Assembly: GCA_963920635.1 (NCBI GenBank)
Contig: OY987306.1
Coordinates: forward strand, 11,674,001-11,738,000
DNA from: Pseudeuparius sepicola
Lineage: Eukaryota; Arthropoda; Insecta; Coleoptera; Anthribidae
DNA length: 64,000 bases
Reading direction: 5' to 3'
Below are positions 1 through 63,930 of the stretch, piece by piece. Within the stretch, counting starts at the first letter, position 1, and each line of letters begins with the position of its first letter. The notes under the pieces were generated by a model that made no database searches, was not told the DNA's origin, and worked only from the letters and a program-made list of their open reading frames with translations. The translations under genes and the position numbers were made by a program.

Positions 1-52370
<52,370 letters not shown>

Positions 52371-57099: not shown

Positions 57100-57120
57100 A
57101 TGCATGGGGAGTATTATATA

Positions 57121-58326
57121 CAGGGTGTAACTGAACTGATGGTCAAAAATGAAACCACGTATTCTTGGAGTCAAAATAAGGGCACTTCTTCATATATTTT
57201 TTTCTTCTACGGGCCATAGTTTTTTTTATACAGAGCGTAGAAGTTTGGAGAAAAATATACATATTTCTTAGTATCTCTAGAAGTATACGAGATATTTTCT
57301 TCAAACTTGGCGTGTCACATGAGCAGATGAGCCGTCAAACTTAAGGTCGATATGAAGCTTCTGAGGCTCCCAGTTGCGGAGATACAGGGTGTTATTAAAA
57401 TTAATTTCTTCAGTAAAATATGAATACCCTGTATAATCGCATTTTTTAAATTTGTTTTGAATGGAAACATCAATGGTTAACAAAAAGTATCTCTTAGTAT
57501 TTTTTCATATTCTCAGCCGTTCCTTAATTATTTTCAAAGAACTGCAACGCTGCAATGAACAATAGTCACTTTAAGAATAAATCTAGCAATCTGTGGATGT
57601 CAATTATACTTTATTTAACAAAATACAAATGCAAAATCGATAATAAAAGAAATTTAATGCTACTAGAAAATTAAATTATTAAATGTTCATGACAACTATG
57701 CCATACCGCATGTTTGTTATTGCCATTGGCAAGTCCATAGCAAAAGTGCATATCAGTCAATTCTTCGAATGAAAATATCATTTTTCAAAATATTGATACT
57801 AGTGCAAAGTTGGCAGCCAAATGATTCAAATAATGCCAAGTTTAATTATCGACTTCCACAGATTGTTAGATTTATTCTTAAAATGACTTGTTTATTGCAG
57901 CATTGCAGTTCTTTGAAAATAATAAGGAACGGCTGAGAATATGAAAAAATACTAAGAGATACTTTTTGTTAACCATTGAATTTACCATTCAAAACAAACT
58001 TAAAAAATGTGATTATACAGGGTATTCATATTTTTCTGAACTAATTAATTTTAATAACACCCTGTATCTCCGCAACTGGGGACCTCAGAAACTTCATATT
58101 AAGCTTAAATTTTACAACTCATCCGCTCGTGTGACACGCTAAGTTTGAAGAAAATATCTCGTATACTTCTAGAGATATTAAGATTAAGTGTATTTTTCTC
58201 TAAATTTCTGCGCTCTGTATAAAAAAACTATGGCCCGTAGGAGAAAAAAATATATGAAGAAGTGCCTTTATTTTGACTCCAAGAATACGTGGCTTCATTT
58301 TTGACCATCAGTTCAGTTACACCCTG
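57121..58326. mobile_element. Palindromic Tc1-type MITE, ~490-bp arms, TA TSD
   Basis: CAGGGTGTAACTGAACTGAT at 57121 and its complement ending at 58326, each next to TA. Arms 57121-57605 and 57840-58326 are about 95% identical by eye; short unique loop. A transcript would form a very long hairpin. Inserted in the LINE. Confidence 0.88.
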
Positions 58327-58328
58327 TA

Positions 58329-61037: not shown

Positions 61038-61148
61038 GATGTTATTAAATTTTAAAAGAAATGGCTTGTGGCATATGGGACAAAATGCTTCGGTAATTGG
61101 CAACACCAAACTAGTTTCCAATATCTAATGGAAATTGTGTATGGGTCC

Positions 61149-61230
61149 TTCGGAGGTGTGCAGACCACGACAGGTACCTGTTTCGGGCTTGTTGGCCCTC
61201 ATCAGGCAGACGTAGCGCACCTCAGCCGAA
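61149..61230 (-). ncRNA. Hammerhead ribozyme, type I (minus)
   Basis: Reverse complement of the motif at 61617-61698, with complete core CTGATGAG ... CGAAAC ... GTC. Predicted cleavage after the C at 61169 on the minus strand; the 3' product runs leftward, out of the element. Confidence 0.88.
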
Positions 61231-61616
61231 AAGACCCAAACACGTTGGCTTAGTGGAAAAGGAACTAGTATAATGCGGTGAGCATTTACCATCCAACGCC
61301 ATCTAGCTGGTACTGCCAAAACCAAAGCAATGTGAGTGTGTATATATCGACCGGTCGATCGACATATAAAAAGAACTCGGCAAAGCGGCGCGGCGCGGTG
61401 GAAAAAAACCAGAAGAAGCATACATACGGGGGCCAAGAAACTCGTTTGATTCATCACCGAGTATCTTCTAATATATAGAAATCAACAAGGATCGAATCGT
61501 GAGTTTCAATCCTCGTGTGCTTACGTCTATAGCCAAACGATGATTAAACAGAATGAATATTTAGTGTCCCCATTATAATTTTAAAAGAAATGGCATATAT
61601 GCCACAAGCCATTTCT

Positions 61617-61698
61617 TTCGGCTGAGGTGCGCTACGTCTGCCTGATGAGGGCCAACAAGCCCGAAACAGGTACCTGTCGTGGTCTGCACACCTCCGAA
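61617..61698 (+). ncRNA. Hammerhead ribozyme, type I (plus)
   Basis: Core CTGATGAG (61642-61649), stem II GGGC/GCCC with loop CAACAA, CGAAAC, a minimal stem III ACAGG-TA-CCTGT, then the cleavage triplet GTC with the cut after 61678. Stem I has a proximal 4-bp helix (two G-U pairs), an internal loop, and outer helices AGGTG/CACCT and TTCGG/CCGAA; such an internal loop facing loop II is how natural type-I hammerheads gain activity. The tiny stem III matches Penelope-type hammerheads, which act best as dimers. Found by eye; activity untested. Confidence 0.9.
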
Positions 61699-61842
61699 GG
61701 ACCCATACACAATTTCCATTAGATATTGGAAACTAGTTTGGTGTTGCCAATTACCGAAGCATTTTGTCCCATATGCCACAAGCCATTTCTTTTAAAATTA
61801 TAATGGGGACACTAAATATTCATTCTGTTTGATGTTATTAAA

Positions 61843-62149: not shown

Positions 62150-62455
62150 GCCATCAGACTCTAAAGCATTTTCAAAATTTTGGGGGGGATGTGTTTGACT
62201 CGGTTGATGTAAATGAGGCTTACGAGAATTTTGCACAGAAGATCACCAATCTTATAAACATAATATGCCCCAATAAAAAACTGAACACAAAAAATAAATT
62301 GTCCACAAGCTGGATAATCATGACCTGCGGGTGTCTTGTAAAATCAAGAGAGATCTATATCAACAGGTGTTAAGGGGGAATATAACAGAGGAATACTATA
62401 AAACGTTTAAAAATAAATTAAAACATGACATAAATGAAGCGAAGAGTATTTTTGA
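62150..62455 (+). pseudogene. Jockey-like LINE fragment (between endonuclease and RT)
   Basis: Reads DVNEAYENFAQKITNLINII, CPNKKLNTKNK, then in a shifted frame RGNITEEYYKTFKNKLKHDI and NEAKSI. This is the linker typical of Jockey ORF2 ('F...Y....CP.K......K...W.T.GI..S...K..LY'). It is cut off at about 62455, where gag-like sequence begins. Confidence 0.68.
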
Positions 62456-62472
62456 GTTTTGAATATTTTTTG

Positions 62473-63930
62473 ATGAGCGAGAGCGATATTTCTATTGATA
62501 TAGAGAGTCTTTCAAGTTTATTCACAAATAATTTAAGCTTTGAGGAACAAAGTAACGTAACCGAGGTTACCCAAGTTATTAATAAGGAAAGTGATCAAAT
62601 AACAATCGCAATGGCGAACGAAAAACTTAACCTGCCAATGCTTAAGATGTATGTTGAAACGATCTCTGAATTCGATGGCAATGTGACTTCTTTGCCCAAA
62701 TTTATTTCTTCTTGCGATTATCTTTTCGAAACATATAGCGAAATTAATGTCGAATTTTTGCAAAACTATTTAATTAGAGCAGTCCAGATGAAATTGACTG
62801 GACGTGCCGAATTATTGATAGGCTGTCGTAACGAATTGGACACTTGGCAAAAGATAAAAGACGCGTTAACACAATGCTTTGGCAATCGTAGGAATCTAGA
62901 GTGCCTAGAGCAAGACGTATTTACAGCTAGACCCTTTAAAAACGAATCACCTTTAGATTTTGCAAAACGTTTACAAGTCATGCGTAGTAACTTAAGACAA
63001 AAGGTAAATTCTGATATTTACTTAAACCAAGCTGCTAAAGATATTTATGGTAGGCAGTATGATGAATTATGTCTACGAACATTTGTTAGAGGTTTATCAG
63101 GTGCCTTACAGACGATAATTCGTTTGAAGGAACCCGCATCCCTAGAAGATGCTATGAATTTAATTATACAGGAAGAAAATTTCAATTACACTCAGAATAT
63201 TTTTAGGAATGGTCCACAAAGTAATTTTTCTAACTCACCACAAAATAATCCACGGACGAACAGACAGAACTCGTACCAAAATAATTACCAAAACAACTTT
63301 TCTCGCCCTAATTTCCAAAATAATTTCCCTCGTCCTAACTTTCAAAATAATTCCCCGCATAACAATTTCCAAAATAACTTCCCAAGGAATAATTATCAAG
63401 GATACAACCATCAACCTAGGAACAATTTCCAAAACCAAAATTATTCTCCTAGACCAGTTTTCCCAAGTCAACCTATTAATGTACAACCAAATTATAATAA
63501 CCAACAAAGACGTTTCCCTACCAACAGACAAGTTTTTGGTCCACCTCGTAATGTTTTCAGACCTACTGGACAAAACATACAAAGGCAATACGAGCCTATG
63601 CAAACTAATTCCCAAACCAGTAGAAATAATTATGCTTTTAATCCTAGAAATCACGAAGCTATGTCTACAAATTCTAGAGTACCCTCTAATGTTCATAGGA
63701 GTTTCTCTGCTAGACAAAATAATTTCCCGAGAAATAATTTTCAGCCACAAAATACTATAATCGAAGAGTTGTATCAGATTAATAACGAAAATGCTAATAA
63801 TGGAAGCCAGTCAATGCGTAATGCGTATGACTTGGTCCCCTCTCAGAATGAAGTTCAAATTCAAAACAAAAATGATAGAAGTCCCGGAAATTTTCAGCAA
63901 GTCAGGTTGTCCCCGAAACGGAAGAAATAG
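62473..63930 (+). CDS. Ty3/Gypsy-type retrotransposon Gag
   Basis: About 485 residues. Residues ~50-240 form a retrotransposon Gag capsid-like domain (ISEFDGNVTSLPKFISSCDY, WQKIKDALTQCFGNRRN, PLDFAKRLQVMRSNLRQK, CLRTFVRGLSGALQTIIRLK). It would assemble the particle that packages element RNA. The C-terminal half is extremely Asn/Gln/Pro/Arg-rich with repeats such as NNFQNNFPRPNF and has no CCHC zinc knuckle. The frame is open from 62434, but the first codons lie in LINE-derived sequence; MSESDISI at 62473 is the more likely start. No 5' LTR or primer-binding site is visible upstream, so the copy may be 5'-truncated. It is intact to its stop at 63928-63930. Confidence 0.88.
   Translation: MSESDISIDIESLSSLFTNNLSFEEQSNVTEVTQVINKESDQITIAMANEKLNLPMLKMYVETISEFDGNVTSLPKFISSCDYLFETYSEINVEFLQNYLIRAVQMKLTGRAELLIGCRNELDTWQKIKDALTQCFGNRRNLECLEQDVFTARPFKNESPLDFAKRLQVMRSNLRQKVNSDIYLNQAAKDIYGRQYDELCLRTFVRGLSGALQTIIRLKEPASLEDAMNLIIQEENFNYTQNIFRNGPQSNFSNSPQNNPRTNRQNSYQNNYQNNFSRPNFQNNFPRPNFQNNSPHNNFQNNFPRNNYQGYNHQPRNNFQNQNYSPRPVFPSQPINVQPNYNNQQRRFPTNRQVFGPPRNVFRPTGQNIQRQYEPMQTNSQTSRNNYAFNPRNHEAMSTNSRVPSNVHRSFSARQNNFPRNNFQPQNTIIEELYQINNENANNGSQSMRNAYDLVPSQNEVQIQNKNDRSPGNFQQVRLSPKRKK

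Follow-up and report, generated by a model that had tools for sequence, protein, structure and literature searches.

A head-to-head hammerhead element in the beetle Pseudeuparius sepicola joins retrozyme content with Penelope-like architecture

Penelope-like elements (PLEs) are reported to carry an inverted pLTR, with a 31-bp tail optionally present at one inverted pLTR and target-site duplications (TSDs) of 8–10 bp (PMC3846280). Palindromes lie at the inverted junction of these elements, a TATA sequence can be read both ways, and the inverted pLTRs were attributed to self-priming (PMC3846280). The insertion mode of PLEs and their frequent inverted terminal repeats are still described as unresolved (in the available text of PMC3846280, and in PMC11167929). 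With purified PLE protein, both strands are cut and extended, and reverse transcription begins at internal sites bounding the tail; the inverted arms were not derived there from extension on both strands (PMC11167929). The word ‘hammerhead’ does not occur in the main text of PMC3846280. Small hammerhead repeats known as retrozymes form the second related group, and PLEs have been named as their mobilisers, as a strong candidate only, from shared features and co-existence (PMC7229834).

We analysed a 64,000-nucleotide stretch of Pseudeuparius sepicola DNA (the window), in which an earlier note had described a discrete insertion built from identical inverted copies of about 180 bp, each with an outward-facing hammerhead ribozyme, and lacking a protein gene. 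All of this description stands. Within the window, the 12-bp direct repeat GATGTTATTAAA is confined to the borders of the element (61038–61049 and 61831–61842), the inverted arms (61048–61231 and 61616–61799) are identical at 184 of 184 positions, and six-frame translation of the 317-nt body gave no long conserved frame, nor any PLE coding remnant by eye.

The left TSD copy (61038–61049), whose final 2 nt are ambiguous with the element end, is followed by the left arm (61048–61231, minus strand), a pLTR with its hammerhead, sense leftwards, that ends without a tail (the N end), as placed by its identity to the right arm and its end position. Next to it lies the non-coding body (61229–61545, minus strand), which recurs in tandem arrays at other loci, and then 49 nt of the next upstream tandem unit (61546–61594, minus strand), comprising a reverse-complement copy of the tail (61546–61576) and the last 18 pLTR nucleotides (61577–61594), all identical to 61782–61830; we infer that the left cDNA stops within this unit. 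At the head-to-head junction, a palindromic hairpin (61595–61618, plus strand), the right cDNA terminates with 22 nt copied from the 3′ part of the pLTR (61597–61618), a direct repeat of 61771–61792. The right arm is a complete 181-nt pLTR (61619–61799, plus strand). It carries a 31-nt extension that the left arm lacks, the tail (61800–61830, plus strand; the T end), and is bordered by the right TSD copy (61831–61842). The tail matches the optional PLE extension, lies between the two inferred reverse-transcription start sites, and reads ATG GGG ACA CTA.. before a stop.

Along the minus strand, an inverted pLTR with its tail comes first, followed by the end of a direct pLTR with tail, the 317-nt body, and a direct pLTR that lacks the tail; a pLTR with an inverted copy and an optional tail is the structure described for PLEs in the available text of PMC3846280. 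By arithmetic from the window, the unit consists of a 181-nt ribozyme pLTR, a 31-nt tail and a 317-nt body, 529 nt in all. The body has a GC content of 0.44 and a CpG observed/expected ratio of 1.37 (61232–61545), with TATA-like sequences on both strands (61229–61545). An open reading frame with reverse transcriptase (RT) and GIY-YIG domains is absent from the unit, the body being too short for one. Since the unit has no frame for RT and endonuclease, we classed it as retrozyme-like rather than as a PLE and, like the earlier note, take it to be probably non-autonomous.

Elsewhere in the window, exons matching Fry_C, MOR2-PAG1_C, MOR2-PAG1_mid and MOR2-PAG1_N lie at 317–50890 (minus strand), in what is probably a Furry (Fry/MOR2-PAG1) gene; the element may be located within this Furry-like gene or 5′ of it. 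A Tc1/mariner-like transposase frame of 339 aa with a DDE_3 domain is present at 31201–32220 (plus strand), its ten best database relatives being 45–48% identical. At 62434–63930 (plus strand) a 498-aa frame with an Asn-rich second half resembles Ty3/Gypsy capsid, the Ty3_capsid match falling below cut-off. The window holds further long inverted-repeat elements, for example at 57119–58328, with arms at 57119–57607 and 57845–58328 that are 91% identical. Two candidate features of the element itself were discarded. An 88-aa open frame across the joined flanks (the empty site) was matched at 22.6% of 2,000 random window points. The A and B boxes of tRNA-like promoters keep a usual distance, at which no A box accompanies a tRNA-like B box here.

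The two hammerheads lie at 61146–61224 (minus strand) and 61623–61701 (plus strand). Their core pattern, CTGATGAG..CGAAAC, occurs at 61180–61205 (minus strand) and 61642–61667 (plus strand) and was reached by 0 of 100 shuffles; the predicted cleavage sites, at 61169 (minus strand) and after 61678 (plus strand), are those the earlier note had given. At the gathering threshold, Rfam returned no match in the whole window. Hammerhead_HH9 (RF02275) does match both copies at 29.1 bits (E 5.6e-5; 1,051 bases searched), its gathering score being 52. The core comprises a 4-bp stem II, a 4-bp stem III, GUC, and a stem I with one U–U mismatch, giving the three helices, cleavage triplet and open stem I of a type I hammerhead. 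Because helices II and III are 4 bp, the triplet is GUC and stem I has an internal loop, the putative ribozyme is of the canonical, not the minimal, type. Across the 39 loci examined, 118 of the 121 pieces spanning the core keep its 14 positions.

Minimum-energy prediction speaks against the active fold and self-cleavage. The active fold lies above the minimum free energy by 7.2 and 9.4 kcal/mol at two lengths (0.1 kcal/mol for the HH9 consensus, the sole control), and the predicted pair probability of stems I and III is 0.0 in 8/8 contexts. Helix III, the 12-nt palindrome ACAGGUACCUGU, could pair between two molecules. In the transcript of the whole element, the arms are predicted to pair into one long hairpin (z −32 relative to 20 shuffles), and both ribozymes would be masked by it.

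The element is not a one-off. A search for genome copies, as the earlier note had advised, returned at least 335 matches in the 769-Mb P. sepicola genome, and we examined 39 loci, namely the window and 38 clusters fetched from among the matches listed, a sample that favours close copies. Exact 529-nt tandem arrays are common, genome matches being spaced 529 bp apart; as the unit length had been derived from the window before the arrays were seen, we count this as support. Like metazoan retrozymes, the unit is thus a non-coding tandem repeat with a canonical hammerhead, with up to 11 full units in one arm (locus L010). Outward-facing head-to-head arms are present at 32 of the 39 loci, 31 of them simple; the other, L030, consists of two neighbouring copies with an identical junction, tail-to-tail to one another, whose outer ends are one T and one N. 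Seven loci have a single orientation (four ending at T, three at N), and no tail-to-tail insertion was found among the 39.

A TSD of at least 9 nt spans the whole pair at 25 of the 31 simple head-to-head loci, compared with 2 of 300 mismatched end pairings, which favours a single insertion, as the earlier note had proposed, over two separate ones. Among the 25 loci with a TSD of at least 9 nt and one N and one T end, 15 have a TSD of 12 nt and 5 one of 13 nt, exceeding the 4 bp beyond which metazoan retrozyme TSDs extend.

We sorted the outer ends by unit position into N (169–186) and T (206–218), with cut-offs set after the ends had been seen. The 31 simple loci comprise 26 N/T pairs, a single N/N pair (L024) and four with one end outside both groups (L018, L021, L035 and L045). 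Were the ends independent and 50:50, at least 26 N/T pairs in 27 would have a probability of 2e-7. Arms in the 26 N/T loci range from 67 to 6,204 nt, with no bias in length between N and T ends (Wilcoxon p 0.58). The 33 junctions are almost all different (32 distinct), 19 showing an overlap of 1–18 nt, and 8 of the 33 join unit positions within 25 nt of one another where 3.2 were expected (p 0.011). In loci with a TSD of at least 9 nt and one N and one T end, the target motif (A/T)(A/T)T|G is found on 10 of 25 N sides and 1 of 25 T sides (T|G alone, 11 against 1; p 0.007). We regard this motif at the N side as only suggestive, since setting the TSD border by the longest match biases it towards bases unlike those of the AT-rich element.

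The mean difference between full units is 0.74% when they come from different loci, 0.33% when they share a locus and 0.26% when they lie in its opposite arms, and at two subfamily marker sites the arms agree in 53 of 55 pure locus-sites, one more locus-site being mixed. Given this low difference between arms and the marker agreement, we conclude that one RNA, or RNAs that are closely related, gave rise to both arms of a copy. Higher-order periods are seen in L010 (three units) and L017 (two units); the L010 array (2279–8482) contains thirteen plus-strand pieces, 11 of them full units, with variants A-B-C recurring at every third unit as a 1,587-bp higher-order repeat. Such periods fit multimeric circular templates, and unequal exchange after insertion could give the same. 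The case for a single-unit circle is weak, because private variants are mostly confined to one piece (103/120) and are shared by every covering piece in only 5/120. Folded as a circle, the unit is predicted to be 62% paired and beats 60/60 shuffles (z −6.4).

A GIY-YIG search of the P. sepicola genome gave at least 132 matches. In one family of resident PLEs, family A, the tandem unit measures 3,136 bp and includes an open frame of 819 aa, a 614-aa part of which contains RVT_1 and GIY-YIG domains. Eleven of the first 12 GIY-YIG loci fetched contain a hammerhead-like core; that of family A has no Rfam match and is minimal-looking, judged from its letters and the published description (PMC7761336).

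Head-to-head PLEs were seen at eight places, and at six of these both outer ends could be classified. Four of the six are clean N/T pairs with TSDs of 12–13 nt: in family A, C3 (L054 and L055; ends at unit positions 331/298, TSD 13), L057 (329/301, TSD 13) and L050 (330/297, TSD 12), and, in family B, a pair on C1 with a 13-bp TSD, whose head-to-head order is taken from the GIY-YIG strands, its centre being outside the fetched stretches. At C7, also family B, both ends are tailed and a TSD is absent. C9 (G000 C9:15678003–15684630; L058, L070 and L071) has N/T outer ends and a TSD of 11–17 nt, and is a PLE array of three arms. Its inner arm, also T-ended, continues into an inverted, identical copy of 134 nt from the right flank; this complex locus looks like the outcome of fold-back copying of the right arm and its flank. 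Of the two remaining places, L048 has one side that ends away from either start site, and L056 runs beyond the fetched stretch.

BLAST found no similarity between the 529-nt unit and the 12 GIY-YIG loci first fetched. The start zones of the unit and of family A do align over ~70 nt, with the start sites roughly in register (ATTTTGTCCCAT..CCATT..GGACACnAAAnTATT), and this is the best place in the whole family A unit. An equally good alignment was reached by 5 of 5000 dinucleotide shuffles and by 6 of 2,212 background windows. The family B pairing with the unit at the start zone is weak, with a score of 18, where shuffles of the family A zone average 17.8. As BLAST similarity is lacking and six background windows score equally, the sequence evidence would link the unit to one PLE family with moderate strength. 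At T ends of family A, ATA follows TTTCT, as in the RNA, in 8 of 13 copies (7/7 and 1/6, two of the seven sharing a flank). The copies compared were L063, L066–L071, L048, L049, L050, L054, L056 and L057, with L064 and L065 left out. The ATA hints at pairing between primer and template. At the family A T end of L072, the sequence continues into the unit.

With a probability of about 0.73, we read the element as a non-coding, non-autonomous 529-nt retrozyme-like unit that is moved by a resident PLE enzyme and inserted as two separately primed cDNAs on a staggered cut. The unit would be transcribed as tandem or circular RNA, and the hammerhead, conserved in its core and putative in its activity, probably trims multimeric RNA into units. 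A PLE protein would cut AT-rich DNA with the ~12-nt stagger that the observed TSDs record, and both 3′ ends would serve as primers for separate cDNAs on the RNA, with one start where the pLTR ends (N) and the other ~31–35 nt further on (T). The two cDNAs would converge after copying anything between part of a unit and many units, and be joined head-to-head at an arbitrary place, often with the few shared bases seen at the junctions. In the window copy, the left cDNA (N end) would comprise the pLTR, the body and the last part of the following unit, whereas the right cDNA (T end) would consist of one pLTR. The arms and TSDs, the existence of both N and T ends and the variety of junctions are all explained by priming on both strands. 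The earlier note had suggested template switching on an RNA dimer, which is not the best reading, since the ends of the two arms differ and point to separately primed cDNAs. What makes the ends differ is a matter of speculation: two primers may use two sites of one RNA, or the enzyme may act as an asymmetric dimer. Against strand-specific starts counts the finding that the start site of the Anolis PLE in vitro is no different between strands (PMC11167929).

More tentatively, with the odds slightly against it, we propose that PLE retrotransposition, autonomous and parasitic alike, normally primes both strands, N on one and T on the other, and that hammerhead retrozymes, equipped with their own variant of the PLE start zone, are copied from RNA circles that are sometimes dimeric or trimeric.

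Head-to-head arms would also arise by fold-back self-priming, in which one cDNA folds and copies its own strand, as proposed for PLEs on an antisense template in the available text of PMC3846280. The palindrome at the centre of the window copy, the excess of junctions joining nearby unit positions and the inverted T arm and flank at C9 all favour it. A second arm made in this way would copy the start of the first and share its end type, whereas the ends differ at 26 of 27 loci (template versions taken together) and the four clean PLE pairs likewise combine two end types; moreover, at 25 of the 33 junctions the unit positions brought together are separated by more than 25 nt. The near-strict one-tail rule argues against fold-back as the general route, which we consider decidedly unlikely, while C9 and the eight near-equal junctions suggest that it happens at times. 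An unlikely alternative, though slightly less so, keeps the mechanism and changes the pedigree, the unit being an internally deleted derivative of a yet-unfound autonomous PLE and not a retrozyme with a history of its own. The PLE-like order of pLTR, tail, body and pLTR, the ATG-bearing tail that runs into a stop, and the start zone common to the unit and family A would all suit such a derivative. It is disfavoured by the lack of a BLAST match to the 12 GIY-YIG loci first fetched (of at least 132 matches), by a body in which no PLE coding remnant was seen by eye in six frames, and by a hammerhead whose helix III has 4 bp and whose stem I has an internal loop, where those of the two PLE families are short and minimal-looking.

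The perfect 184-bp inverted repeats with a TSD, and the further inverted-repeat elements in the window, would suit a foldback element or miniature DNA transposon with ribozymes present by chance in its terminal inverted repeats. Cut-and-paste elements have a fixed interior and fixed ends. Here the termini at the TSD are not symmetric, one side bearing the 31-nt tail and 26 of 27 loci being asymmetric, the centre junctions are nearly all distinct, and the arms hold unequal numbers of tandem units; the structure refutes this reading, which we consider extremely improbable. Separately, five exact-match scans, three of a viral and two of a prokaryote collection, each gave 0 matches, and a viroid-like or HDV-like origin was rejected by judgement, the ribozymes being inverted identical copies.

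The earlier note was right to relate the element to both PLEs and retrozymes, as it joins retrozyme content with PLE architecture. Its view that the arrangement had gone undescribed does not hold, as inverted PLE pLTRs with one optional tail were published in 2013 (PMC3846280). In the open-licence literature, we found no description of head-to-head hammerhead retrozymes, nor of the inverted-arm arrangement in a non-coding unit with a canonical hammerhead and a near-strict one-tail rule. The Penelope elements of Adineta vaga, such as Pen2a, contain an RT-endonuclease frame or captured sequence (available text of PMC3846280), whereas the present unit is 529 nt, non-coding and equipped with a canonical hammerhead. 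Metazoan non-LTR retrozymes resemble the element in being small non-coding tandem repeats that bear type I hammerheads with a helix III, in TSDs longer than 4 bp, in a GC content below 50% and in the absence of LTR features (available text of PMC7229834 and PMC7761336). Their units are ~170–400 nt according to the abstract of PMC7229834, and the present unit is longer; head-to-head arrays are unmentioned in the available text of that source, where ‘inverted’ has 0 occurrences. The Poseidon/PAc PLE of Anolis shares with the element two internal RT start sites bounding a tail and an AT-rich target, and shows both-strand cutting and extension with a hammerhead upstream of the start sites (PMC11167929). 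Its starts in vitro do not differ between strands, whereas here nearly every insertion has one site per end. The proposed use of a PLE start zone by retrozymes may be likened to SINEs carrying LINE tails. A near-strict rule under which each head-to-head insertion combines a tailed with an untailed end distinguishes copying by two primers from self-priming, in a way that is testable with purified PLE protein. It also lends support from sequence to the mobilisation of hammerhead retrozymes by PLEs, a suggestion based on shared features and co-existence (available text of PMC7229834).
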